64,000 nt of DNA from Rheinheimera sediminis (GTDB lineage: Bacteria; Pseudomonadota; Gammaproteobacteria; Enterobacterales; Alteromonadaceae), in the NCBI RefSeq assembly GCF_004005375.1, contig NZ_RZUF01000010.1, forward strand, positions 62,001 through 126,000, in the 5' to 3' direction. The position numbers were made by a program, and so were the translations under genes. Below the pieces are notes generated by a model, which was not told the DNA's origin, ran no database searches, and saw only the letters and a program-made list of their open reading frames with translations. Below are positions 44,449 to 60,592 of the stretch, piece by piece. Every line of letters starts with the position of its first letter. The first letter of the stretch is position 1.

Positions 44449-44470
44449 GGCTAATACCTGTTGAAAAAGT

Positions 44471-44509
44471 AAAAAAAATCGTGACTTGCAGTGCGGCACC
44501 GCAAGTCAC
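44471..44509 (-). terminator. Rho-independent terminator after the TonB receptor gene
   Basis: On the minus strand GTGACTTGC and GCAAGTCAC pair perfectly (9 bp) around an 11-base centre that can fold further, followed by GATTTTTTTTA. It lies between the receptor and the GH105-like gene, so the downstream genes receive less transcript or have their own promoter. Confidence 0.9.
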
Positions 44510-44546: not shown

Positions 44547-47318
44547 TTAAAATTTGTATTGAGCACCTAAGTAGTATTGGCGACCTGTTTCATGGTAGTA
44601 AGTCAGACGATTACCCGCTGAATCTACCCATTGATCATCTACTTCGTCAGTCAGGTTTAAAGCTTCAAAGCTGACTTTCCAGTTGTCGTTTAATGCATAG
44701 GAAACAGATGCATCGACGTTAGTTGTGGCGTTAGTGCCTTCCATATCGTTGTTGTCGCGGCCTATAGCTGTCGTCAGGTATTTACCACGTTTTGCCATGG
44801 AGACACGGGCGTTTAAATCCTCATGTTCGTAATAAATAGTGGCGGCAGAAGTGTTTTTAGATAAACCATTTAAATCACGGGTTGCCTGCACTACACCGGC
44901 AGCGCTGATATAGTCCATCTGTGCATCGACATAAGTGTAGTTGCCAATAAAACCAAATCTGTTCCAGAACTCTGGCAAGAAGGTGAAAGGCAACTGATAG
45001 CTGACTTCCATCCCTTTTAAATCACCACCAGGGCCATTCAGTGGTGTAGTGACTTGCCAGTCTACATTTTCATTACAATCTGCATTGTAACCGGGGCCTG
45101 CGGTACAGGCGTCGATAGCGGCCTGGATAGGTAAACCTGTTTCAGTAAAAGCTTTGGTTTCTCGTAAGGTTTGTACGTGACTATCGATATCTTTAAAGAA
45201 AAACGCCACACCTAGCATCGACTCATCAGAGAAGTAAAACTCAAAACCTAAGTCATAGGTTTGAGCTTTAGTGGGTTCAAGTTGCGGATTACCGCCACCT
45301 ACAGTACGACTGCCACCTGATGCAGAAACAGAGACGTTAGGACGAATAGCGGCCAGACCGGCGCGAGCCATCACTTCTGCCGCACCAAAACGTATAATCA
45401 CATCGTCCCATGGCTCTAATGCCAGGTTCAGTGAAGGTAATACTTCGTTATAATCATGATCAGCTGTTATTTGTGTTGGCGTAGCAGCAAAGGTAGCCCA
45501 GGCTGTAGAGCTTTGCTCAGTTTTAACATGACGCACACCTATATTGCCTCTTAATGGCATATTCACAATATCTGTATCAAAACTTAAGTGCAGGTAAGAA
45601 CCTAAACTTTTTTCGTTTGCTGAATAGTTATCAGTACGACGGAAGTCTGGACTGACGGTAAAAACACCAGTGTTACTATAGATATTGTATTGCGCATCAA
45701 TAGCTGCAAAATCAGGTACTAACCAAACAGGCTGAGTGCCTAACCCAGAGTTATATTGCATCAGTAGATCCGGCGTATAAACAATACCTGCTCCCAATTC
45801 ATTTTGACGACGGGCTTCATAAGTTTCAAAACTAAAGTCTTTGTAATGCAAACCTGCTTTTAACGTCATATTGTCGGTGAGCAGATAGGCGAAATTTACT
45901 TCTGCAGTATCAAAGGTATTTTCAGCCCCAAGTGGCCGTAACCTTACGCTATTGGAAGTCCAGCCATTAGGTTCAAACACGCCTGCGTCAAAAGTCAGCA
46001 ATGGATCCTGGCGTTTTTCACCACGATAGTCATAAGAGAAATCGACCCCCCGTTTTTCTGCTACAAGCGTAGTTTGCACCGGGTTATCAAACTCGGAGCT
46101 TGCTGTGCCTATCATGGCATCCATACTCAGATTATCGGTTAAATGCTGTTTTAGGGACAGATTGTATTGCAGAAATTCAGTGCCGAGTTCATCAAAACGG
46201 TTTTCAGCACGAATTGTGGCATTTTTAAAACTACCATAGGTCATGGTGTTGGTATCATCGATAAAATAATCTACGACATCCATGACGTATGTGCCGCTTG
46301 CTGGAGCACTGTTTGATGCTGCTGCACCGCCATTTAAAATACCCTGTAAAAAAACTTCATTACGGGTCGCATCTGTTTTGGCATACAAAATATCTAAATC
46401 AATTTTGGTATCTTCATTTGGTCTGAACTGAAAAGATGAACTTAAGCCTAAACGATCCAGATCGTGGGTGTAGGAGTCATAACGTGGTAAACGTGGACGG
46501 AATGCATTATTGATTTCAGTTAATTCAGGCGCAGTCGCATTGCCCTGATAAAAACCAAAGTCATTGACACTGTTCCAGCGTACTGTACTGGCACCCTGAT
46601 CTTTGATCTGACGTTCAGAATAAGAAGCGGAAAATAAAGCGCCAATTTTACCGTCGGCAAAAATGTTACTGACTAAAAATGAAGTTTTAGGATCGGTTTT
46701 TTCTGATAAGTCGTTGTAGCCCATCTGGCCTGAGGCTGCGAAAGTAAAACCGTCGTAGTCAAAAGGCTGAGCTGCTCTTAAATCAACAGTGGCACCTAAA
46801 GAGCCTTCTTCGACGTCAGCTGATGCGGTTTTACGAACAGTCAAAGAGCTGAATAAGTCTGAAGAGAAGGTGTTGAAGTCAAAACCACGGCCACGGTTGG
46901 CGCCGCCAATCTGGTCTGTACCACCACTGGTGGATACTGCTTCCATACCGTTTATACGAACACGGGTAAATTCAGGGCCTAAGCCCCTAACTGAAATTTG
47001 TCGGCCTTCACCTGCTGCACGAGAAATAGCAATACCAGGAATACGCTGTAAAGATTCGGCTAGGTTTAAGTCCGGAAAGTCGGCAATATCTTCAGCCAGA
47101 ATGGCATCGATGGCACCATCGGACTGGCGTTTTTGATTTAAAGCATTGGATAACGAATCGCGGAAACTACCTTTTACCTCGATCACTTCGATTCTTTCTT
47201 CTGCTTGCTTAGTTTCAGTTGTTTCTTGTGCTGATACAGAAAATAGTGAAGTACAACCTGCGATAGCTAGAGCTAAGGCAACTTTATTCGGGTGAAATGG
47301 CGTGTTGGTTTTGGCCAT
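44547..47318 (-). CDS. TonB-dependent receptor (Caulobacter type), likely pectin oligomer uptake
   Basis: The 923-residue outer-membrane receptor has a signal peptide ending in FSVSAQ and a TonB box region (RIEVIEVKGSF). It has a plug domain with NLAESLQRIPGIAISRAAGEGRQISVRGLGPEFTRVRINGMEA, and a 22-strand barrel that ends in the C-terminal Phe of YYLGAQYKF. The plug pattern is typical of receptors for plant carbohydrates in Xanthomonas, Caulobacter and Alteromonadales. Substrate assignment rests on context: it is followed by pectin enzymes and shares operator sites with the polygalacturonase gene. Confidence 0.9.
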   Translation of the reverse strand: MAKTNTPFHPNKVALALAIAGCTSLFSVSAQETTETKQAEERIEVIEVKGSFRDSLSNALNQKRQSDGAIDAILAEDIADFPDLNLAESLQRIPGIAISRAAGEGRQISVRGLGPEFTRVRINGMEAVSTSGGTDQIGGANRGRGFDFNTFSSDLFSSLTVRKTASADVEEGSLGATVDLRAAQPFDYDGFTFAASGQMGYNDLSEKTDPKTSFLVSNIFADGKIGALFSASYSERQIKDQGASTVRWNSVNDFGFYQGNATAPELTEINNAFRPRLPRYDSYTHDLDRLGLSSSFQFRPNEDTKIDLDILYAKTDATRNEVFLQGILNGGAAASNSAPASGTYVMDVVDYFIDDTNTMTYGSFKNATIRAENRFDELGTEFLQYNLSLKQHLTDNLSMDAMIGTASSEFDNPVQTTLVAEKRGVDFSYDYRGEKRQDPLLTFDAGVFEPNGWTSNSVRLRPLGAENTFDTAEVNFAYLLTDNMTLKAGLHYKDFSFETYEARRQNELGAGIVYTPDLLMQYNSGLGTQPVWLVPDFAAIDAQYNIYSNTGVFTVSPDFRRTDNYSANEKSLGSYLHLSFDTDIVNMPLRGNIGVRHVKTEQSSTAWATFAATPTQITADHDYNEVLPSLNLALEPWDDVIIRFGAAEVMARAGLAAIRPNVSVSASGGSRTVGGGNPQLEPTKAQTYDLGFEFYFSDESMLGVAFFFKDIDSHVQTLRETKAFTETGLPIQAAIDACTAGPGYNADCNENVDWQVTTPLNGPGGDLKGMEVSYQLPFTFLPEFWNRFGFIGNYTYVDAQMDYISAAGVVQATRDLNGLSKNTSAATIYYEHEDLNARVSMAKRGKYLTTAIGRDNNDMEGTNATTNVDASVSYALNDNWKVSFEALNLTDEVDDQWVDSAGNRLTYYHETGRQYYLGAQYKF

Positions 47319-47417: not shown

Positions 47418-47433
47418 TGTCTACCGGTGGCAA
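47418..47433. promoter_or_regulatory. Probable LacI-type operator, receptor-proximal site
   Basis: TGTCTACCGGTGGCAA is an imperfect 16-bp palindrome with a central CG, the hallmark of LacI-family operators. Its centre (47425.5) is exactly 33 bp from the next site. Confidence 0.7.
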
Positions 47434-47450
47434 AAAGTGCTTGCAATTTT

Positions 47451-47466
47451 GTGCCACCGATGGCAA
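47451..47466. promoter_or_regulatory. Probable LacI-type operator, receptor-distal site
   Basis: GTGCCACCGATGGCAA contains the palindrome TGCCA-CCGA-TGGCA. Centre at 47458.5; forms a pair with the site at 47418-47433. Confidence 0.7.
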
Positions 47467-47741
47467 AAAGCTAACACCAAGCTTAGATCACTGTCAAACG
47501 TCGCACAAAAAAAAATCAGTCCTGTCATTGGGTTTTAGTTGGTTCTGATGGTTAAGTTGTTGTTTTGTATTGATAATATTGCATGTTTTTACGCTTGTTA
47601 AAATAGATTTTGTTCCAGATATGGAATTAATTCAGATCGGACTGATTTTCAGCTGTATTTTAGCTATCCGGTCTAGGGTGACAGAGGCGATAACAGTGCA
47701 TAACCAAAGTGTCCTGTTCCGGGCAAAAAGAGGAGGCAAGC

Positions 47742-48500
47742 ATGTCGGCTTTATTTTCGTTAAAAGGGCAAAAGGCTTTAGTCACAGGTGCAAGCCGTGG
47801 CCTGGGTAAAGCTATTGCGGTGGCATTGGCAGAAGCTGGTGCTTGTGTCCTTTGTTGCAGTTCCACATTAGAAGGGGCCAGCGCCACAGCAAGTCTGATC
47901 CGGGCTAAAGGGGGGGAGGCTGCTGTACTGGCTGCAGACTTAGCGGATATGGAACAGGTTCGTGCTCTGGCAGACAGTGCTTTGGCATTGGGTGAAGTAC
48001 ATATTCTGGTGAACTGTGGTGGTACTATTTTCCGGGCACCTGCTGTGGATTACCCGATGGAAGAGTGGCAGAAGGTGATGCGGGTGAATCTGGATTCGGC
48101 ATTTTTGCTCAGTCAGTTGCTTGGCGCTGAAATGCTTAAACGTGGCCAGGGCAAAATTATCAACATTGCTTCTATGTTGTCCTACAGCGGTGGAATTACC
48201 GTGCCGGCTTACACTGCCAGTAAACATGCCATTACAGGCTTGACCAAAGCTTTGGCGAACGAATGGGCCGCTTCAGGTTTAAATATCAATGCGATAGCAC
48301 CTGGCTATTTCCGAACGGACAACACTTTCGCCTTACAGCAAGATCAGGTTCGCAATCAGGCTATTCTGGCGCGGATCCCATCCGGACGCTGGGGAGAACC
48401 TGAAGATTTAGCAGGTGCTGCTGTGTTTTTAGCGAGCAGCGCCAGTAATTATGTCAATGGCCATGTACTGGCTGTGGATGGAGGCTGGCTGGCCCGATAA
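47742..48500 (+). CDS. kduD: 2-dehydro-3-deoxy-D-gluconate 5-dehydrogenase
   Basis: KduD reduces 2,5-diketo-3-deoxygluconate (DKII) to KDG in the breakdown of unsaturated uronates. The 252-residue short-chain dehydrogenase starts MSALFSLKGQKALVTGASRGLG (nucleotide loop TGxxxGxG) and has the Ser/Tyr/Lys triad in ASMLSYSGGITVPAYTASKHA. The ending ASNYVNGHVLAVDGGWLAR is typical of KduD. The ATG has AGGAGG 5 bases upstream. It precedes kduI by 34 bases. Confidence 0.93.
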   Translation: MSALFSLKGQKALVTGASRGLGKAIAVALAEAGACVLCCSSTLEGASATASLIRAKGGEAAVLAADLADMEQVRALADSALALGEVHILVNCGGTIFRAPAVDYPMEEWQKVMRVNLDSAFLLSQLLGAEMLKRGQGKIINIASMLSYSGGITVPAYTASKHAITGLTKALANEWAASGLNINAIAPGYFRTDNTFALQQDQVRNQAILARIPSGRWGEPEDLAGAAVFLASSASNYVNGHVLAVDGGWLAR

Positions 48501-48534
48501 GGCTAATTAACGCCAGTGTTTGCAGGAGAATAAA

Positions 48535-49377
48535 ATGAACGTAATTTTTGAGAACCGTTTTGCTACAGCGCCCTTGGATGTCAAACACTACGACACCGAC
48601 AAGCTGCGACAGAATTTTCTGATCGATAACCTGATGCAGGCCGATCAACTGGTGTTGTGTTACACCCACTACGAACGTCTGATTGTTGGCAGTGCTGTGC
48701 CTGTTCAGGCTCCCGTGCTGTTGCAAACAGTGGACGCGCTGAAAGCCGAGTTTTTTCTGCAACGCCGTGAACTGGGTGTGATTAATGTTGGTGGCACTGG
48801 TTTTGTTGAAGTCGATGGCAACAAATACGAGCTGGCGAACAAAGAGGCCTTGTATGTCGGTATGGGCTGTAAAAACGTCAGTTTCCATAGTTTGAACAGC
48901 GAAACTCCGGCTAAATTCTATTTGAATTCCACTCCTGCACATCACGCTTATCCAGTACAGCATGTGCGGATGGCCGATTGTAAAAAACTGGAGATGGGCG
49001 CTTTAGCCACCAGTAACGAGCGCATTATTTATCAGTTGATGATTAAAGACGTAGTGCAAAGCTGTCAGTTGCAAATGGGCTTAACAGTACTGAGTCAGGG
49101 AAGTGTCTGGAACACCATGCCTGCGCATCAGCATGACAGACGGATGGAAGCCTATTTCTATTTTGATCTGACCCCAGGCCAGGCTGTGTGCCACTTTATG
49201 GGCGAGCCAACAGAAACCCGTCATTTGTGGATGGGCAATGAGCAAGCTGTGGTCTCTCCACCCTGGTCTATTCACAGTGGTGTGGGCACAGGCAGCTACG
49301 CCTTTATCTGGGGTATGGCTGGTGAAAATCTGGATTATCACGATATGGATAAATTTGGCCCTGACCAATTGAGATAA
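48535..49377 (+). CDS. kduI: 5-dehydro-4-deoxy-D-glucuronate isomerase
   Basis: KduI isomerises 5-keto-4-deoxyuronate (DKI) to DKII. The 280-residue cupin matches the E. coli length of 278. The zinc ligands are in MPAHQHDRRMEAYFYF (two His and Glu) and the later His in PPWSIHSGVG. The C-terminus WGMAGENLDYHDMD is conserved. The start follows AGGAG; an upstream in-frame start at 48520 lies before this site and is rejected. A terminator follows. Confidence 0.95.
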   Translation: MNVIFENRFATAPLDVKHYDTDKLRQNFLIDNLMQADQLVLCYTHYERLIVGSAVPVQAPVLLQTVDALKAEFFLQRRELGVINVGGTGFVEVDGNKYELANKEALYVGMGCKNVSFHSLNSETPAKFYLNSTPAHHAYPVQHVRMADCKKLEMGALATSNERIIYQLMIKDVVQSCQLQMGLTVLSQGSVWNTMPAHQHDRRMEAYFYFDLTPGQAVCHFMGEPTETRHLWMGNEQAVVSPPWSIHSGVGTGSYAFIWGMAGENLDYHDMDKFGPDQLR

Positions 49378-49382
49378 GGACC

Positions 49383-49409
49383 ACGAAGCCCTGGGGAGGG
49401 CTTCGTTTA
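49383..49409 (+). terminator. Rho-independent terminator after kduI
   Basis: ACGAAGCCCT and AGGGCTTCGT form a 10-bp stem with a GGGG loop, then TTAT. It separates kduDI from the TRAP genes. Confidence 0.8.
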
Positions 49410-49505
49410 TCAGTAATAGCTTAGTAAAACAGGGCTGCAATCACTGCAACAGACAGTGTGCCCTTCGACAGCGCCAGCCGTACGAGCGCTGACTTATAAA
49501 AGACA

Positions 49506-49629
49506 TCCCCTAAGTAATTGGAGTTGCAGGGAGGCGACGAGGGCTTGAGTCCCCAACATACATAGTGTCCTATGTGATTGGGGCGAGAGAACTTCGTCAA
49601 CAAAGCTGCAGCTTCTAGTACGACGGGGA
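49506..49629. repeat. ~124-bp nested inverted-repeat element
   Basis: The segment folds by eye into one extended structure. Outer ends TCCCC and GGGGA pair; next GTTGCAG (49523-49529) pairs with CTGCAGC (one G-T); then GACGA with TCGTC; and the apex is CCCCAA-CATA-CATAG / CTATG-TGA-TTGGGG around a TGTC loop. It ends 22 bases before the TRAP gene start. I have the impression of similar sequences scattered in Shewanella, Pseudoalteromonas and relatives, which would make it a mobile non-coding repeat, but I cannot confirm that here. It is the only copy I see in the window. Confidence 0.6.
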
Positions 49630-49650
49630 AAGCAACAGGTAGGTTAGACG

Positions 49651-50667
49651 ATGAACATTTCTACACTGCGCAGCATCTTGCTGTGCTGCGGTTTGGCGAC
49701 TCTGCTATTCAATACAGGCTGTCAGCGTCAGCAAGAGCAGATCACCTTGCGCATGGGCCATTCACTGGACCAGGAGCATGTAGTCCACAAAGCTATGGTT
49801 TATATGGCAGAACGGCTGGAATACTACTCCAAAGGCCAAATGCATATTCAGATTTACAGTGGTGGGCAGCTTGGTTCGGAACGTGAGCTGATTGAATTGT
49901 TGCAGATTGGCAGCCTGGCTTTGACGAAAGTGTCGGCCAGCCCACTGGAAGGTTTTGTGCCTAAGATGCAAGTATTCAGTGTGCCTTATGTGTTCAGAGA
50001 CAGTGCGCATTTATGGGCTGTACTGAACGGTCCAATAGGCCAGGATTTACTCCATTCGATGCAAAACGCCCGTTTGCATGGTTTAGGGTATTACGATGCG
50101 GGTAGCCGCAGTTTTTATACCACCAACAAAGCTGTGCATCAGCCTTCTGATTTAAAAGGTTTAAAGTTTCGGGTGCCCAACAGTCAGACCGCAGTGCAGA
50201 TGGTACAAACCTTAGGAGGCGCTGCGACCCCAGTCGACTGGGGCGAGCTCTACACTGCCTTACAGCAAGGGGTAGTGGATGGTGCTGAAAACAATCCGCC
50301 TAGTTTTTATTTATCCCGTCATTACGAATTATCCAAATACTACAGTCTGGACGAACACACTTCAGTGCCGGACGTGATTTTAATCAGTTTACCTGTCTGG
50401 AAAAGCCTGAATACTCAGCAGCAAGGCTGGGTGCAACAAGCCATGAATGATTCAGTGCGTTATCAGCGCGATTTATGGCAAGAGGCCAGTGATGATGCTT
50501 TAGCGAAAGTCAAAGCTGCTGGTGTGGAAGTGATTTATCCGGACAAAGCCTCCTTTGTCGCAGCAGTACAGCCACTGCATCAATCGCTGCAGGGCACTGC
50601 TGTGGGCGATTTGATGGCTGAAATTGCGTTAGTTCAGGCTGAAACCACCGGAGGGTCTAATGACTAA
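49651..50667 (+). CDS. TRAP transporter substrate-binding protein (DctP type)
   Basis: The 338-residue protein is the periplasmic receptor of a TRAP transporter. It has a lipoprotein signal (LLFNTGC lipobox near residue 23), then the DctP fold: LRMGHSLDQEHVVHKAMVYMAERL, IQIYSGGQLGSERELIELLQ, the conserved Arg region LKGLKFRVPNSQTAVQM that binds the substrate carboxylate, and LQQGVVDGAENNPPSFY. Context points to galacturonate or unsaturated pectin oligomers. Lipid anchoring is less common than a free periplasmic form. It overlaps the next gene by 8 bases. Confidence 0.9.
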   Translation: MNISTLRSILLCCGLATLLFNTGCQRQQEQITLRMGHSLDQEHVVHKAMVYMAERLEYYSKGQMHIQIYSGGQLGSERELIELLQIGSLALTKVSASPLEGFVPKMQVFSVPYVFRDSAHLWAVLNGPIGQDLLHSMQNARLHGLGYYDAGSRSFYTTNKAVHQPSDLKGLKFRVPNSQTAVQMVQTLGGAATPVDWGELYTALQQGVVDGAENNPPSFYLSRHYELSKYYSLDEHTSVPDVILISLPVWKSLNTQQQGWVQQAMNDSVRYQRDLWQEASDDALAKVKAAGVEVIYPDKASFVAAVQPLHQSLQGTAVGDLMAEIALVQAETTGGSND

Positions 50668-51160
50668 ATTAGTACTGTTCGTCGATTGGATGTTAAAGCG
50701 CTGTCTAATGCTGTTAATGGCCAGCATAGTATTGGTGGTGTGCTGGCAGGTGTTATCCCGTTTTGTGCTGACCAATCCCAGTTCAATGACAGAAGAAATT
50801 GCCCGTTGTTTATTGTTATGGATTGCCATGTTGGGTGCAGCTTACGCCTATCGTACCGGACAGCATTTGGGCCTTGATATTGTCACCAGCCGAATGCCGC
50901 CTTTGTGGCAGCACCGTATTGCTTTTGTACTAACCGCCGCTGTAGTGGTTTTTGCGTCCATTGTGATGGTATGGGGCGGCGGTGAACTAGTGTGGTTAAC
51001 CTACGAGTTAAATCAAATGTCGGCAGCTTTAGGCATTCGTATCGCCTGGATTTATCTGGTCTTGCCTTTAGCCGGGCTATTGATCGCTTTTTATGGGGTA
51101 TGTCAGCTGCGTTGTCTGGCGGCTAAAATTCAATTGGTCCCGGCAGAGGAGGCTGAATAA
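50660..51160 (+). CDS. TRAP transporter small permease (DctQ type)
   Basis: The 166-residue membrane protein has four hydrophobic helices, as expected for DctQ, which bridges the binding protein and the large permease. NPSSMTEEIARCLLLWIAMLGAAYAYRTGQHLGLDI is the family's conserved second-helix region. The gene overlaps both neighbours (8 bases and 1 base), so the three subunits are made together. Confidence 0.9.
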   Translation: MTKLVLFVDWMLKRCLMLLMASIVLVVCWQVLSRFVLTNPSSMTEEIARCLLLWIAMLGAAYAYRTGQHLGLDIVTSRMPPLWQHRIAFVLTAAVVVFASIVMVWGGGELVWLTYELNQMSAALGIRIAWIYLVLPLAGLLIAFYGVCQLRCLAAKIQLVPAEEAE

Positions 51161-52455
51161 TGGAATGGTCTGTACTTGTTTTAATCTCTGTGTTTTTTAC
51201 CTTGTTGTTATTGAATGTACCTATTTCCTTTTGTATTGGTTTAGCCACTTTATGCACCATGTTGCTGTCGATGGATTTGCTGCCTGCTGTTATCACTCTG
51301 GCGCAGAGAATGGCGGGTGGCCTGAATAGTTTTGCCTTGCTGGCTATTCCATTTTTTGTATTATCAGGACTCTTAATGGGGCGGGGCGGTATCGCCAAAC
51401 GATTGATTGAAGCCGCTATGGCTTTGGTCGGCAGCTTGCCAGGTGGCCTGGCATTGGTGAATGTGTTGTCTTGTATGTTGTTTGGCGCTATTTCAGGCTC
51501 AGCTGTTGCCGCAACTTCGGCTATAGGCAGCTTTATGGTGCCTGAGATGAAAAAGCAGGGCTATGATGTGAACTACAGTGCTGCTGTCACTGCGGCTGCT
51601 GCAACCACAGGTATGCTGATCCCACCAAGCAATATAATGATCGTTTACGCCATCGCCAGTGGTGGAGTGTCTATTGCCGCTTTATTTGTCGCCGGCTATT
51701 TGCCGGGAATTTTGTTGGGTACTGCTTTAATGCTGGTCTGTGCAGGCTATGCCAAAATGAAAGGTTATCCACTGGCGGCCCGCTTGCCTTTGTCTTTAAC
51801 CTGCAAAAAGCTGGCTGCTGCAGTTCCCAGTTTGTTGATGATAGTGCTGGTGATAGGCGGCATTATCAGTGGTGCTTTTACTGCAACAGAAGCTGGTGCA
51901 ATAGCAGTGGTTTATTCGTTTATTCTTGCGGTTTGTGTGTATCGTGAGGTAAAAGTTAAAGAGCTGCCTGCTATTTTGCTTAAATCGGCAGAGACTACTG
52001 CCATAGTGATGGCGCTCATTGCTACTTCTGCCGCCATGTCCTGGATTTTATCCTACGAGAATATCCCACAAACTGTCAGTCAAGGCTTATTAACCTTGAG
52101 CGAAAATCCACTGCTGATTTTGCTACTCATTAATATCATTCTGTTGGTGGTGGGGGCTTTTATGGATATGACACCCGCAGTGCTGATTTTCACGCCTATC
52201 TTCCTGCCTGTAGCGGTGGAGCTTGGCATGAGTCCGTTACATTTTGGCATTATGCTGATTTTGAATTTATCTATTGGTTTAGTTTCACCTCCTGTTGGCA
52301 GTGTGTTGTTTGTCGCTTGCGCTGTGGCCAAAACCAAACTGGAAGCTTTGATCAAACCGCTGCTGCCTATGTATCTGGCTATGGTGGCGGTGTTATTGCT
52401 GGTCACTTATGTGCCAGCGATCAGTGAATTTTTGCCTAATTTGTTTGGGCTTTAG
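51160..52455 (+). CDS. TRAP transporter large permease (DctM type)
   Basis: The 431-residue protein has about 12 membrane segments and is the Na+-coupled transport subunit. Family motifs are FALLAIPFFVLSGLLMGRGGIAKRL, SGSAVAATSAIGSFMVPEMKKQGY, TTGMLIPPSNIMIVYAIASGGVSIAALFVAGYLPG and the C-terminal NLSIGLVSPPVGSVLFVACAVA. Its ATG shares the A of the DctQ stop codon. The organism also has Na+-NQR, which would provide the gradient. Confidence 0.93.
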   Translation: MEWSVLVLISVFFTLLLLNVPISFCIGLATLCTMLLSMDLLPAVITLAQRMAGGLNSFALLAIPFFVLSGLLMGRGGIAKRLIEAAMALVGSLPGGLALVNVLSCMLFGAISGSAVAATSAIGSFMVPEMKKQGYDVNYSAAVTAAAATTGMLIPPSNIMIVYAIASGGVSIAALFVAGYLPGILLGTALMLVCAGYAKMKGYPLAARLPLSLTCKKLAAAVPSLLMIVLVIGGIISGAFTATEAGAIAVVYSFILAVCVYREVKVKELPAILLKSAETTAIVMALIATSAAMSWILSYENIPQTVSQGLLTLSENPLLILLLINIILLVVGAFMDMTPAVLIFTPIFLPVAVELGMSPLHFGIMLILNLSIGLVSPPVGSVLFVACAVAKTKLEALIKPLLPMYLAMVAVLLLVTYVPAISEFLPNLFGL

Positions 52456-52463
52456 GAGCTGTC

Positions 52464-53240
52464 ATGACCAGTTATTTGATCCCAAATCTTGCCAATGCCT
52501 GCCGCATGATGGAGTTAGTGGCGGCATCAGGTTCTGGTTTAACTTTATCCCAGTTGGAACAACAACTGGCGGTACCTCGAACCAGTGCTTTTCGTATTTT
52601 ACAAACGCTTTGCCAGCAGCAAATGTTATACAAAGAAGGCAAAAAGTACCGGGTGGGTAGCAGTTTATACAAGATGGGGCTGGACTTGCTGCAGCATCAT
52701 CACCTGCATCAGCTCGCTGTGCCTGTGCTGCACAAGCTCACAATCAGCACCGGGCTCACCAGCCATCTGGCATTACCAAGGCCCGATGGGGCTTTGATAG
52801 CTGAAGTTTGTGATAGTCCCAATCCCAGCCATCTGGCGGCCAGGCCAGGCTTTTTGGCTGATTTGCATTGCTCTGCTGGTGGTAAAGTGTTTTTGGCATT
52901 TAATTACTTCGACCAATTAGCAACTTTGCCAGGTTTACAGCATATGAGTGCAAGAACACCGCAAAGTATTACCGATCTAGCCCGCTTGCGAGTAGAATTG
53001 CATAGCGTTTTAGGTCGGGGTTATGCGCTGGACGATCAAGAGTATCAAGCCAATATCAGATGCATTGCTGTGCCTATCCGAAACGCTCAGGGTACTGTGG
53101 TTGCTGCTGTTGGAGTCACGGGGTTAAGTAGTATTTTGTGCAAACAACGTTTGCCGCTTGTGGTTGCTGCCGTAAAACAAGCGGCTATCGATATTAGTCT
53201 GGCGTGCTACAGGCCTGCTTTATTGGCTAATGATAAATAA
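52464..53240 (+). CDS. IclR-family transcriptional regulator (KdgR-like)
   Basis: The 258-residue protein has an N-terminal winged helix (ANACRMMELVAASGSGLTLSQLEQQLAVPRTSAFRILQTL) and a C-terminal effector domain (LHCSAGGKVFLAF, GYALDDQEYQANIRCIAVPIRNAQGTVVAAVGVTG). It resembles KdgR, which responds to KDG in enterobacteria, and its place next to uronate genes supports that. It starts 8 bases after the TRAP permease and is in the same unit. Typical KdgR boxes were not found in the window. Confidence 0.83.
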   Translation: MTSYLIPNLANACRMMELVAASGSGLTLSQLEQQLAVPRTSAFRILQTLCQQQMLYKEGKKYRVGSSLYKMGLDLLQHHHLHQLAVPVLHKLTISTGLTSHLALPRPDGALIAEVCDSPNPSHLAARPGFLADLHCSAGGKVFLAFNYFDQLATLPGLQHMSARTPQSITDLARLRVELHSVLGRGYALDDQEYQANIRCIAVPIRNAQGTVVAAVGVTGLSSILCKQRLPLVVAAVKQAAIDISLACYRPALLANDK

Positions 53241-53252
53241 CAGGATAAGTGG

Positions 53253-54293
53253 ATGATACAAAAAAGTTCGACCATTAACGATGTGGCCCGTCTGGCTGGC
53301 GTGTCCAAGCGCACTGTGTCGCGGGTAATCAATGGCTCTATGAGTGTGGGTGACAGCACCAGAGTCCGGGTCGAAAAAATTATCGCTGAACTGAATTATT
53401 CGCCAAACACACAAGCGCGAGGTCTAGCCTCCAGCCGTTCTTATTTATTGGGTTTAATCTACGACAACCCTGATGCCTTGTATTTGGATGATGTACAACG
53501 GGGTGTGTTGGAGATTTGCTCCAGATTGGGCTACGAGTTGGTGGTGCACCCTTGTCGCTATCGTAGCGAGACGCTGGTGCAGGACTGCCTGAATTTTATT
53601 AATAGGTCAAAACTTGATGGCGTTATTGTTCTGCCGCCGGTTTCTGAACTGGAGTCTCTGGCTGAAGCCTTGAAAGATGCAGGACGACCTTATGTGCGGC
53701 TAACCTCTGTGGCTATTGATGAAGCCAAACATATAGTGGTATCTGACGATCGCTCTGCTGCGGCAGAAATGGCGCGTTATTTTGCTCAGTTGGGTCATCA
53801 GGATATAGCTTTTATCAGTGGCCCTCAGCGTTATAAATCCTCTACGGAACGGATGGAAGGCTTTAAATTGGGTTTGTCAGCTTATGGTATAGCCCTCAAA
53901 GCTGAACGTATTATGGAAGGTAATAATACCTATGAGACAGGCATTGAATGTGCCCGCAGCCTGCTGAGTCAAAGTCCTTTACCTACAGCAATTTTCGCCA
54001 ATAACGATCAGATGGCCGCAGGTGTACTAAAAGTAGCGCATCAAATGGGTATAGCTATTCCAGAGCTGCTATCTGTTGCTGGTTTTGATGATAACTTGCT
54101 GGCATCCAGAGTGATTCCGGCGTTGACTACGATAAGACGGCCTGTACGACAAATGGCGCAGTTAGCGACCACCAAAATGATTATGGTGATTGAGCAAAAC
54201 GACAAAGCCGCACAACAAGTCGCAGCGAAAGTTGCTCCCACTTTGGTTGTAAGGGAATCCACAGCCAAGGTTTCTGTCAGTCTGCCTTCATAA
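53253..54293 (+). CDS. LacI-family transcriptional regulator
   Basis: The 346-residue protein has a LacI DNA-binding head (TINDVARLAGVSKRTVSRVINGS), a hinge helix NTQARGLASS with the Leu that inserts at the central CG of operators, and a periplasmic-binding-fold effector domain (NDQMAAGVLKVAHQMGIAIPELLSVAGFDDN). It follows the IclR gene by 12 bases. It is the only LacI-type protein in the window and is therefore the natural candidate for the five CG-centred palindromes at the receptor, GH28 and uxaA promoters. The inducer is unknown; a uronate or KDG-like intermediate is likely. Confidence 0.9.
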   Translation: MIQKSSTINDVARLAGVSKRTVSRVINGSMSVGDSTRVRVEKIIAELNYSPNTQARGLASSRSYLLGLIYDNPDALYLDDVQRGVLEICSRLGYELVVHPCRYRSETLVQDCLNFINRSKLDGVIVLPPVSELESLAEALKDAGRPYVRLTSVAIDEAKHIVVSDDRSAAAEMARYFAQLGHQDIAFISGPQRYKSSTERMEGFKLGLSAYGIALKAERIMEGNNTYETGIECARSLLSQSPLPTAIFANNDQMAAGVLKVAHQMGIAIPELLSVAGFDDNLLASRVIPALTTIRRPVRQMAQLATTKMIMVIEQNDKAAQQVAAKVAPTLVVRESTAKVSVSLPS

Positions 54294-54323
54294 GCTTGAT
54301 TGAATTTATATTTTTTTAGTTTT

Positions 54324-54386
54324 CCCAGTCAGTAAAATAGAGTAATGTGGTTTTATTAGAAAAAATGAAACCATCTGTTGACTGGG
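54324..54386. promoter_or_regulatory. Widely spaced inverted repeat at the start of the propeller-GGDEF gene
   Basis: CCCAGTCA (54324-54331) and TGACTGGG (54379-54386) are perfect complements 47 bases apart; TAAAA and TTTTA between them can also pair. The right arm covers the Shine-Dalgarno-like GGGA before ATG 54396, so a folded leader could hide the ribosome site. It may also be chance. Confidence 0.35.
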
Positions 54387-54395
54387 ATGGCACTG

Positions 54396-57359
54396 ATGTT
54401 AATTTTTGCAGTATTTATCAAATTGTTAAGCAGTAAAAAGTCCAGAGTAGTTTTCACTGTACTTTTGCTACAGCTTTTTTCAACTCTGCCTTTTTCCGCA
54501 ACTGCTGCTACCGCTGCTTTGACGGATTATTTTCGTGAAAGCTGGAACACCCGCCAAGGCTTGCCTCATAACACTATTAACAGTATCAGTCAGACTCCAG
54601 ACGGTTATCTTTGGTTTGCGACCTGGGAAGGTGTAGCCAGATACAATGGCCGTGAATTTAAAGTCTTTGGCCGTGAACAGCAAACCGGCTTGCCTGATTC
54701 TGGTATCCGCGCTTTGCATCTGGATCCGAAAGGGCGTTTACTGGTGGGCGGATCCCGCGGTGGTTTGGCGCTATTGCAAGATCAACAATGGCGGCCTGTG
54801 GATGCCGTGTCTGCTCTGGTTAATGAAGTCCGCGGAGATGCAAAGGGTCAGTTGTGGGTTGGCACAGAAGGTGGCGGTTTGTTTTGTCTGCACCCCGATG
54901 GTTCTCGCCAGCAATGGACCCGGCATCATGGCTTACCCAGTAATACGTTATACAGTCTGTTGCATGACGATCAGGATGGGCTTTGGCTGGGAACTGCTGA
55001 AGGTTTAGCCTATTTGCAACAGGGGAAAGTACAGACAGTAGCGAATAGCCCCAAACTTCCTGTCTTTGCATTGGCTTATTACCAGGATCAGCTTTATTTA
55101 GGAACTGAACGGGGTTTGTATCAACAGCAGGGAGAGGACTTTGTTTTAGTGCGACCTGAACTGCATCAAACTGCTATTTCCAGATTATTAGTGGACCATC
55201 AGGGCGATTTATGGATAGGGACAATAGAGGAAGGTGTATTTCGTCTGAGTAATTATGGCTTAGAGCAACTGAGTGCCCGGCATGGTATGCCGAATAACAG
55301 AGTCCTGGCGATTTATCAGGACAGTGAACATAGCATCTGGTTGGGCACCAACGGTGGGCTGTTTCGTTTACGTGATGCGCCTTTTACTACTTTAAGTGCA
55401 GAACATGGTCTACCCGATAATTTCGTGCGCACAGTGTTACAGCATTCGGATGGCACTATCTGGATTGGTACTGCAAGGGGAGTGGCAAGGTACAAAGATG
55501 GACAACTGCTCACGGCCAATCATCTGCTGACGGACCAGTCGGTGTTAAGTCTGGCTGAAACGCCACAAGGGGATGTGCTGATTGGAACCTACTCATCCGG
55601 TGTATTTCACTACAGTCAGGGGAAAGTGGCAAAGCTACTGGACCGTAATTCAGGTTTATTATCCAACGAAGTCAGGGCCATTTTAGCCTTATCCGAAGCC
55701 GATATTTGGTTGGGTACTGCGCAAGGACTGAATCATTATCAAGATAACAAACTAAGTAGTTACACCACGCGAGATGGTTTGCCTGCAGATTTTGTAATAG
55801 CGCTACACAAAACAGCAGATGTGCTATGGATTGGTACTGGTGCGGGCGTAACCCGGCTGGTGAATGACCAGTTTGAGGCTTTAGTGTTAACTCAGCTCGA
55901 TCAGGCTGAATACGCTTTTGATTTTTATGAACAACCAGAAAAAAATTTGCTTTGGCTTGCCACAGACCGAGGTTTGGTACGTTACAGATTGGGTAGCGGT
56001 GAGTTGTCTTTGATTGGGCGCAAAGCTGGTATGCCATTCGACAAAATTTTTCAGGTTCAGCCTGATTCGCATGGCAATTTTTGGCTCAGCAGCAACAGGG
56101 GTATTTTGCGGATTGATCAGTTGGAAGCCAATGCGGTAGCTGATGGCACTTTGGCTGCAATTCCCTTTGAGTTGTTTGGTGAAAGTGACGGTATGCTGAG
56201 TGCCCAGGCGAATGGTGGTTCTAACCCGGCTGCTATAATGGCCAATGATGGTGTTTTATGGTTTGCCACTGCTTCAGGTATCAGCAGAGTGCAGCCCAGC
56301 CGTTTAACCACATTTTCAGATGCCATACCTCCTGTGGTTCTGGAAGAGTTACTGGTCAATGGTGTGGAGAAAACAATTAGTGGGAGTATCGATTTACCAC
56401 CGGACAGCGACAGAGTCGAGTTGCATTTTGCTGGTTTAGGTTATGTCATGCCCGAGCGTATCCAGTACAGAAGTCGCTTGGTTGGCTTCGATGAAAATTG
56501 GCTGAACAAAGGGAAGCAAAACTTCGCTGAATATACCAACCTGGCACCGGGAAGCTATGAATTTCTGGTGCAAGCGGCCAACTCTGGCGGCCAATGGAGT
56601 GAAGCGGCGCGTATTGAACTGATTAAGCATCCGCATTGGTGGCAAACCCGTAATTTTCAGTGGCTAAGCGCAATATCTTTGATGGCGCTTCTGTCGATAC
56701 TGGGGTACTGGCGTGTGTCAAGCCTGCGCCATTCAGAGCAGCGTTTAAAGCTTCAGGTTGCGGAAAAAACTGCAGAGTTGCAGCAAAAAGCCAATAGTTT
56801 GCAGGCCGCAGACCAAGAAAAATCAACATTATTGGCTCAGTTACACCAACAAACCCTGGCTTTGGCATTACAAGCCAGACAGGATGGTTTGACAGGTCTT
56901 GCCAATCGCCGTGCTTTTGATGAAGTATTAATCAAAGAATTCAGTCGTTCTCAGCGACTGAAACACCCTTTGGTGCTGGCTTTCATCGACATAGATCACT
57001 TTAAAAAAATCAATGATACCTGGTCGCATCATGCTGGAGATTTAGCTTTAGTCGCCATTGCAGAAAAAATTCGCCAGCATTCCCGCTCTGTGGACTGCGC
57101 TGCACGCTGGGGTGGGGAAGAATTTGCACTTTTGATGCCCTCTACCAGTCTTGAGCAGGCGCATATGGTGTGCGAGCGTTTAAGACTCGAGATTATGGCG
57201 TTGGAATGGCAGGATATAGCGGATGACATCAGCATTACTGTTAGTATCGGCCTTGCGATCAGTGATGAGTTATCTGACGCTAAACAATTGCTGTTTTTAG
57301 CGGACCAGGCCTTATACCAGGCCAAACAACAAGGTCGAAATCAGGTCTGCGCAGCCTGA
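54396..57359 (+). CDS. Two-propeller sensor fused to a GGDEF diguanylate cyclase
   Basis: The 987-residue protein has an N-terminal signal or anchor segment, then about 14 propeller repeats of the LWIGT-x-GL-x-RY type (residues about 45-650), enough for two seven-bladed propellers. A Y_Y_Y domain follows (RIQYRSRLVGFDENWLNKG...LAPGSYEFLVQAANSGG), then one membrane helix (residues about 755-775), a coiled coil and a GGDEF domain. The signature is GGEEF at about 906-910, with an RxxD inhibition site (RSVD) five residues before it, so an active cyclase is expected. The sensor half resembles the Bacteroides hybrid two-component sensors for polysaccharides, but the output is c-di-GMP. Starts at 54387 or TTG 54378 are possible. 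Confidence 0.87.
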   Translation: MLIFAVFIKLLSSKKSRVVFTVLLLQLFSTLPFSATAATAALTDYFRESWNTRQGLPHNTINSISQTPDGYLWFATWEGVARYNGREFKVFGREQQTGLPDSGIRALHLDPKGRLLVGGSRGGLALLQDQQWRPVDAVSALVNEVRGDAKGQLWVGTEGGGLFCLHPDGSRQQWTRHHGLPSNTLYSLLHDDQDGLWLGTAEGLAYLQQGKVQTVANSPKLPVFALAYYQDQLYLGTERGLYQQQGEDFVLVRPELHQTAISRLLVDHQGDLWIGTIEEGVFRLSNYGLEQLSARHGMPNNRVLAIYQDSEHSIWLGTNGGLFRLRDAPFTTLSAEHGLPDNFVRTVLQHSDGTIWIGTARGVARYKDGQLLTANHLLTDQSVLSLAETPQGDVLIGTYSSGVFHYSQGKVAKLLDRNSGLLSNEVRAILALSEADIWLGTAQGLNHYQDNKLSSYTTRDGLPADFVIALHKTADVLWIGTGAGVTRLVNDQFEALVLTQLDQAEYAFDFYEQPEKNLLWLATDRGLVRYRLGSGELSLIGRKAGMPFDKIFQVQPDSHGNFWLSSNRGILRIDQLEANAVADGTLAAIPFELFGESDGMLSAQANGGSNPAAIMANDGVLWFATASGISRVQPSRLTTFSDAIPPVVLEELLVNGVEKTISGSIDLPPDSDRVELHFAGLGYVMPERIQYRSRLVGFDENWLNKGKQNFAEYTNLAPGSYEFLVQAANSGGQWSEAARIELIKHPHWWQTRNFQWLSAISLMALLSILGYWRVSSLRHSEQRLKLQVAEKTAELQQKANSLQAADQEKSTLLAQLHQQTLALALQARQDGLTGLANRRAFDEVLIKEFSRSQRLKHPLVLAFIDIDHFKKINDTWSHHAGDLALVAIAEKIRQHSRSVDCAARWGGEEFALLMPSTSLEQAHMVCERLRLEIMALEWQDIADDISITVSIGLAISDELSDAKQLLFLADQALYQAKQQGRNQVCAA

Positions 57360-57426
57360 GTTGTATTCAATTCTCTGTGGTTGTGATTTCAATAATGGAA
57401 TCTTTTTTCTGAAGTTCTCTGACCAG

Positions 57427-57442
57427 TTGCCATCGGTGGCAA
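57427..57442. promoter_or_regulatory. Probable LacI-type operator, upstream site of the GH28 pair
   Basis: TTGCCATCGGTGGCAA is a near-perfect palindrome (TTGCCA / TGGCAA arms) centred at 57434.5 on CG, 33 bp from the next site. Confidence 0.75.
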
Positions 57443-57459
57443 AATTTTTTGTCTATCTA

Positions 57460-57487
57460 TTGCTACCGGTGGCAAATGCGTTATTAT
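57460..57487 (+). promoter_or_regulatory. GH28 promoter overlapped by a LacI-type operator
   Basis: The operator TTGCTACCGGTGGCAA occupies 57460-57475. TTGCTA at 57460-57465 serves as a -35 box, followed after 16 bases by TATTAT at 57482-57487 as -10. A repressor on this site would block polymerase. A stray half-site, TGTCTATC, lies at 57450-57457. Confidence 0.7.
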
Positions 57488-57550
57488 GCTTTTTAAATAA
57501 GCATAAAGCAGAAGATAAGCCATAGCTTTATGCAGAAAAAGGGAAAACTC

Positions 57551-58990
57551 ATGCTGATACCTGATCTGAAAAAACGTTTTTTACTCAAAGCTTGTGCTGC
57601 TTCTGCGGTACTACAACCTTTGCTAAGTTTTAAAGTGACGGCTGCTGCGGCTAAAGTTGTGGATCCTGTTTGGGCTGTGGCTGAACAAATACTGCGGGAT
57701 ATAAAGCTTACATCCTTTCCACAGCGCGATTTTGTCATCACTGCCTTTGGTGCCAAACAAAATCAGCGGTGTGATAAGGCCATAGCGCAAGCTATAGCGG
57801 CTTGTCATCAAGCCGGTGGTGGTCGTGTGGTGGTGCCTGAAGGGGTCTGGTCCACTGGTCCTGTGCATTTAAAATCCAATGTGAATTTACATCTGCAAAA
57901 AAATGCAGTCTTGTCCTTTGTTACAGACCCACAAGCTTATTTACCTGCAGTATTTACCCGCTGGGAAGGCGTGGAGCTGATGGGGTTTTCTCCGCTCATT
58001 TATGCGTATCAGCAACAGAATATAGCGGTGACAGGTGAAGGTATTCTGGAAGGTAATGCCAGTGGTGACAATTGGTGGCCCTGGAAAGGGGTATGGAAAC
58101 ATACGCCATGGAAGCTGGATCCGGCAACAGATCAAAAACCGAGCCGTGATCAACTATTTGCTATGGCCGAAGCTGGTGTGCCAGTCGAAAAACGTGTTCT
58201 GGACAACAACAGATTAAGACCCCCTTTTATTCAGCCCTATGGCTGTGAAAGGGTATTGATTGAAGGCGTCACTATCCGCAACTCGCCGTTTTGGTTGATC
58301 AACCCTGTACTGTGTAAAGATGTGGTGATCCGTGGTGTGAACTGTGTCAGTTTTGGCCCAAATTCTGATGGTTGCGACCCTGAATCCTGTCAGCGTGTTT
58401 TGATTGAAAACTGCTTGTTTGATACAGGGGATGACTGCATCGCCTTGAAATCTGGCCGCAATGCGGAAGGCCGCCGTTTAGCCACTCCTATACAGCAAGT
58501 GGTTATTCAGGATTGTCTGATGAAATCCGGTCACGGCGGTGTAGTGATCGGCAGTGAAATCTCGGGTGGCGCTAAGCAAATTTTTGCCCGCCGTTGCCGC
58601 ATGAGCAGCCCAAATCTGGAGCGCGGTTTACGTATTAAAACCAACTCAGTACGCGGCGGTTTAATTGAACAAATTGCGGTAGATGATATTGAGATTGGTG
58701 AAGTCAAAGACGCCATTGTGATCAATTTCTATTACGAAGAAGGCGATGCGGGCAACTTTTTACCTGAAGTCAAAGATCTGAAAATCAGTAACTTCAGAGT
58801 GAAAAAAGCCCAACGTGCTTTTGAAATTCGTGGCTTACCCCGTGCTGGTATCAGCGGCATTCAGATGACAGATGTCAGTTTTGAGCAAGCAAGCTTAGGT
58901 GTTTTAGAGCATAGCAGTGGTTTTAAACTGGAAAACGTCAGTCTGAACGGTAAAGCACTCACTGCAGCTCTGTTAAAGCAGAGCAGCTAG
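57551..58990 (+). CDS. GH28 polygalacturonase
   Basis: The 479-residue beta-helix enzyme hydrolyses alpha-1,4 bonds between galacturonates. All four GH28 signatures are present: NSDGCDPES, DTGDDCIALKSGR, SGHGGVVIGSE and RIKT, which include the three catalytic Asp. The N-terminus LKKRFLLKACAASAVL is a signal sequence with some likeness to twin-arginine signals but with KR instead of RR. ATG 57551 has GGGA upstream; ATG 57530 is an alternative. The insert FQP-type residues suggest an exo-acting or oligogalacturonate-preferring enzyme, but this is uncertain. uxaA follows after 54 bases. Confidence 0.92.
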   Translation: MLIPDLKKRFLLKACAASAVLQPLLSFKVTAAAAKVVDPVWAVAEQILRDIKLTSFPQRDFVITAFGAKQNQRCDKAIAQAIAACHQAGGGRVVVPEGVWSTGPVHLKSNVNLHLQKNAVLSFVTDPQAYLPAVFTRWEGVELMGFSPLIYAYQQQNIAVTGEGILEGNASGDNWWPWKGVWKHTPWKLDPATDQKPSRDQLFAMAEAGVPVEKRVLDNNRLRPPFIQPYGCERVLIEGVTIRNSPFWLINPVLCKDVVIRGVNCVSFGPNSDGCDPESCQRVLIENCLFDTGDDCIALKSGRNAEGRRLATPIQQVVIQDCLMKSGHGGVVIGSEISGGAKQIFARRCRMSSPNLERGLRIKTNSVRGGLIEQIAVDDIEIGEVKDAIVINFYYEEGDAGNFLPEVKDLKISNFRVKKAQRAFEIRGLPRAGISGIQMTDVSFEQASLGVLEHSSGFKLENVSLNGKALTAALLKQSS

Positions 58991-59008
58991 TGTTTTTTTA
59001 GATTGATT

Positions 59009-59024
59009 TTGCCACCGATAGACA
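59009..59024. promoter_or_regulatory. Probable LacI-type operator before uxaA
   Basis: TTGCCACCGATAGACA has one half identical to the other sites and a second half (TGTCTATC on the other strand) like the left half of the receptor site at 47418. It lies 20 bases before the uxaA ATG, so it could also act as a roadblock to transcripts from the GH28 promoter. Confidence 0.6.
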
Positions 59025-59044: not shown

Positions 59045-60592
59045 ATGACAGAGCAAACAAAAGGTTGTAGCCCACATATTGCCGATCCGGCTGCCATTCA
59101 GTTGAGCCTGTTGCAGGTGCATCCGCGCGACAATGTGCTGGTCGTATTGCAACCTTTGGCGTCAGGCCAGTCATTAATTGCACCCTGGCACGAAGTACAG
59201 GCAAAAGAGGATATTCAGCCAGGCCATAAAGTAGCACTGAAGCTGATAAAACAGGGCGAAGCAGTCATCAAATATGGCTACGCCATAGGCGTCGCGCAGC
59301 AGGATATTCCGGCTGGTAGCTGGGTGCATTCACATAACCTGAAAACCTTATTGTCTGATCAGATTGAGTACCAGTATCAGGGCTGTGCGGCTGACGATTT
59401 AGCCTTCCCAACCGAATTACCAAGCCATTTTATGGGTTATCGCCGTGCCAATGGCAGGGTCGGTACCCGCAACGAGCTATGGATCTTAAATACAGTAGGC
59501 TGTGTTAACCGCGCAGCAATGAAAATAGCCGAGAAAGCCAATCAACAATTTGCTGGTTTAACAGATGGTGTTTTTGCTTACACCCATCCTTTTGGCTGTT
59601 CTCAGTTAGGTGATGATTTAAACCATACCCGCGCTGTATTGGCTGGCCTGATGCAAAACCCCAATGCCGGCGCTGTGCTGGTGCTGGGTTTGGGCTGTGA
59701 AAATAATCAGCTGGCGGCTTTGCTTAAAGCTTGCCCTGAACTGGATCAAAGCCGTTTACGCTCTTTTAATGCCCAGCAAGTGGAAGATGAATTAGATCAA
59801 GGTTTGGAGGCAGCAGCAGAACTTATTCAACTGATGCAGCAAGATCAACGTACAGCCTGTCCTGTGTCTGATTTAGTGGTAGGTATGAAATGTGGCGGCT
59901 CTGATGGTTTAAGTGGTTTAACGGCCAATCCGCTGGTGGGCCGTATTGCCGATTTAGTCTGTGCAGCTGGCGGCAAAGTGGTGCTGACTGAAACTCCTGA
60001 GATGTTTGGCGCTGAACAAGTGCTGATGAGCCGTGCTGTCAACGAAACCGTGTTTTCCGACATAGTCACTTTGGTCAACGACTTTAAGCAGTACTTTATC
60101 GATAACAAACAGCCTGTGTATGAAAACCCAAGCCCTGGCAACAAAGCAGGTGGCTTGACCACTCTGGAAGAAAAGTCCTTAGGCGCTATTCAAAAAGGCG
60201 GCTCAGCCAAAGTGACCCAAGTGATCCCTTATGGTGCTTTGGTGCAACAGCAGGGCTTAACTTTGCTGCAAGGACCTGGCAATGATGCGGTGTCGTCTAC
60301 GGCCTTAGCCGCCAGCGGCGCGACCATGCTGCTGTTTACCACAGGCCGGGGCACCCCGCTTGGTTTCCCTGTCCCTACAGTAAAAATTTCGTCCAACAGC
60401 GATTTAGCCAGACGCAAACCGCAGTGGATAGATTTTGACGCCGGCGCTTTGTTGCAACAAGGCCAGAATGCTCAGGATTTTTCCTACCAGTTTTTCCGAG
60501 AGCTAATAGATATCGCCTCCGGCAAACGCACTCAAAACGAATTATCAGACAACAAAGAAATCGCCATTTGGAAAAATGGCGTGACCCTGTAA
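59045..60592 (+). CDS. uxaA: Altronate dehydratase
   Basis: UxaA dehydrates D-altronate to KDG, the last galacturonate-specific step. The 515-residue protein has an N-terminal SAF domain (LQVHPRDNVLVVLQPLASGQ) and a large C-terminal domain with FMGYRRANGRVGTRNELWILNTVGCVNR, FAYTHPFGCSQLGDD, MKCGGSDGLSGLTANPLVG and TGRGTPLGFPVPTVKISSN. It is the first of uxaA, uxaC, reductase, eda, all within a few bases of one another. Confidence 0.94.
   Translation: MTEQTKGCSPHIADPAAIQLSLLQVHPRDNVLVVLQPLASGQSLIAPWHEVQAKEDIQPGHKVALKLIKQGEAVIKYGYAIGVAQQDIPAGSWVHSHNLKTLLSDQIEYQYQGCAADDLAFPTELPSHFMGYRRANGRVGTRNELWILNTVGCVNRAAMKIAEKANQQFAGLTDGVFAYTHPFGCSQLGDDLNHTRAVLAGLMQNPNAGAVLVLGLGCENNQLAALLKACPELDQSRLRSFNAQQVEDELDQGLEAAAELIQLMQQDQRTACPVSDLVVGMKCGGSDGLSGLTANPLVGRIADLVCAAGGKVVLTETPEMFGAEQVLMSRAVNETVFSDIVTLVNDFKQYFIDNKQPVYENPSPGNKAGGLTTLEEKSLGAIQKGGSAKVTQVIPYGALVQQQGLTLLQGPGNDAVSSTALAASGATMLLFTTGRGTPLGFPVPTVKISSNSDLARRKPQWIDFDAGALLQQGQNAQDFSYQFFRELIDIASGKRTQNELSDNKEIAIWKNGVTL

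Follow-up and report, generated by a model that had tools for sequence, protein, structure and literature searches.

The window analysed here, 64,000 nucleotides of the Rheinheimera sediminis genome (contig NZ_RZUF01000010.1, positions 62,001 to 126,000), carries genes for the use of pectin and galacturonate together with two adjacent regulator genes, one of the IclR and one of the LacI family. The question raised by this locus is which regulator controls it and through which DNA sites. Our analysis favours the LacI-family protein encoded at 53253–54293 (plus strand) as the repressor that governs a pectin/galacturonate regulon locally and would act via the 16-bp CG-centred palindrome TTGCCACCGGTGGCAA; judged from sequence comparison, the probability of this reading is about 0.9. 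A preliminary description of the window had proposed such a LacI-controlled regulon, and the proposal gained support from the co-occurrence of paired sites with orthologues of the regulator, from the lack of sites around kduI in seven relatives that have no orthologue, from the persistence of the motif where no IclR protein is found and from the conservation of the site columns. The presence of a LacI regulator at 53253 was likewise borne out: both an N-terminal helix-turn-helix (HTH) domain (Pfam LacI PF00356, 3.1e-20) and a periplasmic-binding-like effector domain (Peripla_BP_3 PF13377, 1.6e-36) were matched. The recognition helix reads VSKRTVSRV.

Candidate operator sites

The five 16-mers named in the preliminary description were read with identical sequence, and gene calls placed them, as it had stated, before a TonB-dependent receptor gene, a GH28-family gene and a uxaA-like gene. 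Candidate operators O1a (TGTCTACCGGTGGCAA, 47418–47433, with the variant half TGTCTACC) and O1b (GTGCCACCGATGGCAA, 47451–47466) lie in the divergent promoter between the receptor and a kduD-like gene, O2a (TTGCCATCGGTGGCAA, 57427–57442) and O2b (TTGCTACCGGTGGCAA, 57460–57475) upstream of the GH28-family gene, and O3 (TTGCCACCGATAGACA, 59009–59024) about 20 bases before the uxaA start. The operator form ascribed to them, even and CG-centred, holds for all five, those at 47418 and 59009 being imperfect palindromes. Section 9 of PMC4052901 describes LacI-family operators as even palindromes of 16–22 nt with a CG centre, mostly located 30–140 bp upstream of the start. Measured from the near edge to the listed start, the sites lie 100 and 133 bp from the receptor, 55 and 88 bp from GH28 and 21 bp from uxaA, so that four of the five distances fall in this range.

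Mismatch scans were run with TTGCCACCGGTGGCAA as the consensus. At up to three mismatches the window holds four matches, all among the five sites (0.52 expected; none of 100 shuffles reached four); O3 differs from the consensus at four positions. The earlier remark that no matching sites had been noticed elsewhere in the window holds at this threshold and very nearly at four mismatches, where seven CG-centred places are found: the five sites and two more, at 21553 and 41101.

A feature absent from the preliminary description is the spacing of the sites. In both window pairs (47418/47451 and 57427/57460) the starts are exactly 33 bp apart. Neighbouring sites within 120 bp of each other were then surveyed at four mismatches with a CG centre in the window and the LacI-locus stretches of relatives. 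The survey returned 43 pairs, of which 37 are spaced at 33 bp, three at 31 bp and one each at 32, 60 and 61 bp; the 37 are not separate events, since many are orthologous. Tandem LacI-family sites in PMC4052901 show spacing peaks at 13, 22 and 32 bp, the last two read there as cooperative binding of two dimers.

Across the whole genome, 29 places match within three mismatches, compared with seven for the reversed control. One of the operators proposed here lies just outside the window: the sixth site, ATGCCACCGGTGGCTG, is found at C2:128986 (L085:3987), 2,986 bases beyond the window end. From its start it is 110 bases to a second TonB receptor gene, behind which comes a pectate lyase gene. Of 20 downstream stretches examined in relatives, four match this second receptor (L124, L129, L130 and L134), each with a site between the aldehyde dehydrogenase gene and the receptor; no match to the receptor was found in the remaining 16. 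The 29 places also include a second operator family, TTGACACCGGTGTCAA, at C53:1921, C68:11213 and C68:21433, which has near-copies at C68:35967 and C68:36204. Other matches fall on contigs C6, C7, C9, C24 and C31 or lack a CG centre, and one at C17:67400, inside an amino-acid kinase/PUA gene, was taken as chance. Motif-like stretches inside lacI of some relatives (for example, L079:10274 and L068:10228) were attributed to codon chance, being absent at four mismatches from most loci of the same genus. As a separate observation, the gap between kduI and the TRAP transporter genes (49378–49650) holds no CG-centred site at four mismatches; L075 and L076 have one at or before the TRAP genes.

The preliminary description had also proposed a weight-matrix scan of the genome. 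Part of this check is covered by the genome-wide three-mismatch scan above and by a matrix applied to a portion of the genome. The matrix was trained on 95 sites (33 distinct 16-mers) from relatives, all within two mismatches of the consensus and possibly including intragenic ones, and was run on 414,590 bases made up of the window and 20 further stretches of the same genome, partly picked around LacI genes. At a score of at least 10.54, 20 places were returned: the six pectin sites, five of the second family and nine others. In the null, 12 Markov resamples yielded 0–4 matches for every 64 kb.

Conservation and co-occurrence with the LacI orthologue

In promoter alignments the sites rank with the best-conserved blocks. 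Identity to the window was 99.2% in the O1a and O1b columns versus 67.8% in other columns of the receptor/kduD promoter (19 sequences), 99.7% in the O2a and O2b columns versus 80.0% in the GH28 promoter (nine sequences) and 98.3% in the O3 columns versus 76.1% in the uxaA promoter (11 sequences). Because the rows were drawn from loci where sites had already been seen, these values describe how well the sites are kept relative to their surroundings, and not how frequent they are. Next to O1b, a block AAAGCTAACACC at 47467–47478 is identical in all 19 aligned receptor promoters. Shuffles, the pattern of pairs across the order and the conservation of promoter columns led us to reject chance palindromes as a source of the sites.

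The regulator was traced in a set of 97 relatives (98 genomes with the window's own) and in an order-wide set of 394 genomes, own included, where orthologues were called at E ≤ 1e-90. Orthologues of the LacI protein occur in 36 other genomes at 52–97% identity. Among the matches listed, 25 of the 97 relatives have an orthologue at 57–97%, the next matches being at 43% or less; in the order set, 18 genomes including the own one have it, at 52–100%. Stretches of 10–40 kb fetched for each of the 36 orthologue-bearing relatives (935,902 bases in total) contain a CG-centred site at up to one mismatch in 30, two in 34 and three in 35 of them, with 95 sites at up to two mismatches overall.

The 33-bp operator pair is rarer and tracks the regulator. 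It was found in six of the 394 order genomes (reversed control: none), all of which belong to the 18 with a LacI orthologue; for this overlap the hypergeometric probability comes to 3.7e-9 when genomes are counted and to 3.1e-5 when genera are, kinship being ignored in both. Two genomes of other families, G151 and G409, were picked up by the pair; both then proved to carry the orthologue, at a distance of about 20 kb and 324 kb, respectively. The pair in G151 stands before a TonB receptor gene, with GH28, uxaC and GH88 homologues adjoining.

Negative controls came from genomes with kduI, which at E ≤ 1e-30 occurs in 33 of 98 genomes, 26 with the LacI orthologue and seven without. None of these seven has a CG-centred site at up to four mismatches in the 129,289 bases around kduI (stretches of 12.8–20 kb). 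One of them, G025, keeps kduD, kduI, the TRAP genes, an IclR gene (46%), uxaC, uxaB and kdgK; it has neither the LacI orthologue nor a site around kduI. The regulator is encoded beside its putative targets and co-inherited with the motif, as is characteristic of local sugar regulons, with G174 and in part G392 as exceptions.

These exceptions and several other observations weigh against the proposed regulon. In G174 (L215, orthologue at 59%), neither a site at three mismatches nor a pectin-gene match was found in 20 kb, and G392 (L216) has a single three-mismatch site, before lacI. The receptor with the 33-bp pair in G409 (L159:9936-19283) is followed by HlyD/AcrB/OEP efflux genes rather than pectin genes, and the loci of G302, G409 and G311 have no kduI match. 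Twelve of the 18 orthologue-bearing genomes lack the 33-bp pair at three mismatches; among them, G044 has a 32-bp pair, G302 a 61-bp pair and G174 none, and the others inspected have separate sites. Single 16-mers at two mismatches, with any centre, occur in 82 of 98 genomes, including orthologue-less ones such as G025 (five), G026 (seven) and G030 (three). The window's own lacI has no site directly upstream at four mismatches, and the matrix scores of the sites at 47418 (13.3) and 59009 (10.5) are at background level. With single 16-mers this common, it is their position, pairing and conservation that carry the argument.

One competitor for these sites is the neighbouring IclR-family protein (52464–53240, plus strand; Pfam IclR_C, 2.9e-32), whose gene immediately precedes lacI within one run of genes. 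The enterobacterial KdgR, an IclR repressor, governs metabolism of 2-keto-3-deoxygluconate (KDG) and pectin use according to PMC3750489, and an analogous role here would be conceivable. The window protein, however, scores only 65.6 bits against the NCBIfam KdgR model NF011671 (cut-off 275), and the motif proved independent of it. Thirteen LacI-bearing genomes with an IclR-less locus were examined (G174, G392 and G274 were left out); in 12 of them the motif is kept and IclR is not matched at E ≤ 1e-15, and the 13th, G264, has a 43% match elsewhere in the genome. G025 shows the converse, IclR without a site, and therefore disfavours IclR as the binder. Because no site was found around kduI in the seven controls without the LacI orthologue, and the motif persists in genomes without an IclR match, we reject the IclR protein as binder and consider this assignment extremely improbable. 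Binding by a different LacI paralogue deserves equally little credence. The genome does encode 11 proteins with LacI HTH matches, the closest paralogues being about 40% identical to the window LacI, but the window protein is the only one of the 11 whose recognition helix reads KR, the 33-bp pair accompanies its orthologue in six of six genomes, and a sister-clade paralogue on C68, with KK in the helix, has TTGACACCGGTGTCAA upstream instead.

Two further alternatives concern individual sites rather than the regulator. The palindrome at 57427 might be, or double as, an intrinsic terminator of the upstream gene, as 57426–57440 and 57427–57442 score as weakly terminator-like, with a six-pair stem followed by AAAATTTTTT or AATTTTTTGT, and the scan counted three terminator-like sites where shuffles gave a mean of 0.2. 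We regard a terminator in place of an operator as highly unlikely: the stem is short, the T tail differs in L060, L062 and L066, the 16-mer itself is kept in eight of nine rows with a one-base change in L064, and the partner at 57460, 33 bp away, has no T tail. It is also unlikely, if less remote, that LacI binds only the three strong sites and that no operator exists at 47418 or 59009, where the TGTCTAYC halves would be kept for another reason such as a promoter element (TAGACA on the other strand). Both sites do score at background on the matrix and share the variant half. The matrix, however, penalises this half by construction, because it was trained on sites within two mismatches; both sites occupy highly conserved columns, 47418 is exactly 33 bp from 47451, and the variant half recurs at other loci, for example L161:8161 and L218:19724.

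Sister LacI clade and a second operator family

All 37 orthologues, the window protein included, carry the helix VSKRTVSRV (35 genomes in the tree; G072 and G096 by eye). The LacI tree comprised 54 rows, with the window LacI present twice; L046, L047 and L053 were left out and read separately as KR, KR and KK (as L090), respectively. The KR clade received support of 100/100 and its KK sister clade 94/77, the two being joined at 98/93. Long branches were flagged, among them L178 (KR, G392).

The KK member of the own genome, on C68, has TTGACACCGGTGTCAA upstream and a uxaC homologue adjoining. Members and near-copies of the TTGACACCGGTGTCAA family (L087, L088, L089) were seen near the KK LacI gene, uxaC/uxaB homologues, a TonB receptor gene and a GH28-family gene. 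With the KK LacI, this family probably forms a separate uronate regulon. In G086, ATGACACCGGTGTCAA and TTGACACCGGTATCAT flank a KK protein. The two other KK proteins, L082 and L084, have a TTGACAC- or TGATAC-type site about 1 kb away; these sites may belong elsewhere, because they are nearer to another lacI.

Between the two clades, arginine versus lysine in the helix correlates with C versus A at position four of the operator. We tentatively suggest, at somewhat less than even odds, that sister LacI clades keep two uronate regulons apart, VSKRTVSRV with TTGCCACCGGTGGCAA serving pectin and VSKKTVSRV with TTGACACCGGTGTCAA the second locus, by one helix change and one base change per half-site, and that the in-phase 33-bp pair forms a module found in other families, too, in front of other TonB receptors.

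Gene content, proposed control and known systems

The minus-strand genes of the locus begin with the receptor (44547–47318), the putative target of the 47418/47451 pair, followed by genes for a GH88-DUF4861 protein (41980–44499) and a pectinesterase-GDSL esterase (40281–41975), both probably co-transcribed with it (Pfam assignments for all three). The plus-strand series opens with the kduD-like dehydrogenase gene (47709–48500, Pfam SDR), which diverges from the receptor and starts 243 bp from the closer of the two sites; its best NCBIfam model is TIGR01832 kduD, at 333 bits just below the cut-off of 338.85. It is followed by kduI (48520–49377; NF002091, 428 bits, cut-off 250), the TRAP transporter genes DctP/DctQ/DctM (49651–52455, Pfam), the IclR and LacI genes and a Reg_prop/Y_Y_Y/GGDEF gene. 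Next comes the GH28-family gene (57530–58990; Pfam, 5.4e-28), putative target of the 57427/57460 pair, whose true start may be an in-frame ATG at 57551. The series continues with the uxaA-like altronate dehydratase gene (59045–60592, Pfam), putative target of O3, uxaC (60602–62026; Pfam, 8.1e-81) and a uxaB/uxuB-like hexuronate reductase gene (62037–63530, Pfam), for which no NCBIfam model scored above its cut-off. Past the window end lie kdgA, kdgK and an aldehyde dehydrogenase gene, and after these the sixth site.

Before GH28, a promoter-like TTGCTA-16-TATTAT element (57460–57487, plus strand) was found by consensus match, one such match standing against a shuffle mean of 0.6. It is present in all nine aligned GH28 promoters, and its −35 hexamer consists of the first six bases of site 57460. 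A TTGAC hexamer abuts the operator in L077, L212, L213, L214 and L218. Together, the −35 inside 57460 and the abutting TTGAC hexamers suggest repression by occlusion. In the receptor promoter the scan gave no promoter-like match overlapping the sites.

We infer binding, repression, cooperativity and the effector from these sequence patterns. LacI would recognise the 16-bp palindrome TTGCCACCGGTGGCAA as a dimer. The receptor/kduD and GH28 promoters would each take up two dimers, spaced by 33 bp or about three helical turns, lying on roughly the same helix face and probably cooperating, whereas uxaA and the second receptor–pectate lyase operon would each be bound by a single one. The bound repressor would mask promoter elements, the −35-like hexamer of GH28 among them, and an intracellular intermediate of pectin breakdown would cause it to release the DNA. 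KDG is the likeliest effector, a choice we hold with slightly under even confidence, since it is the point at which the kduI/kduD and uxaC/uxaB/uxaA branches converge. Given the loci without a kduI match in G302, G409 and G311, this meeting-point argument does not cover every member, and an intermediate of the uxa branch may act instead.

In gene content the regulon resembles the enterobacterial KdgR pectin regulon; KdgR of Bacillus subtilis represents LacI-family control of KDG genes, and Algoriphagus, also considered below, belongs to a phylum other than that of the window organism. Unlike the LacI protein here, the enterobacterial KdgR is of the IclR family, and the window IclR falls far below the NCBIfam cut-off for it. 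Among the closest parallels are the hexuronate LacI groups ExuR, KdgR, UxaR and UxuR (Ravcheev et al. 2014, PMC4052901), which share the CG palindrome, tandem sites near 32 bp and control of galacturonate genes; neither 'pectin' nor 'Alteromonad' appears in the main text of that paper, whose six hexuronate groups may or may not include the present one. UxuR2 of Algoriphagus (PMC5507952) is described as a LacI regulator of galacturonate/glucuronate loci that, as here, combine hexuronate genes with a TRAP transporter. UxaR of Thermotoga maritima, as presented in PMC3750489, likewise joins pectinase, transporter and galacturonate genes and a kdgA-kdgK operon under one regulator and one palindrome-type motif; unlike the window LacI, it belongs to the GntR family and has a 17-nt motif. 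Its binding was demonstrated in vitro, and no tested intermediate released the DNA (PMC3750489). In the available text of PMC3124978, chitin genes are the only ones for which a LacI homologue is mentioned. The literature searched contains no description of a LacI pectin regulon for this bacterial group, although RegPrecise may already list the group.

For pectin use in this order, the analysis supplies a regulator together with its operator and target genes, and it places the two TonB receptors of the locus under a single putative switch. It is a solid gain in annotation for a fairly ordinary sugar-control circuit and introduces no new mechanism. The sister repressors, differing by one residue and one operator base, offer a natural pair for work on LacI specificity.

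Between lacI and the GH28 promoter, 54378–57359 encodes the Reg_prop/Y_Y_Y protein with a GGDEF domain. The loci of several relatives (e.g., L071, L073 and L074) contain no match to it. Its position in the window suggests that pectin sensing may be connected with cyclic-di-GMP.

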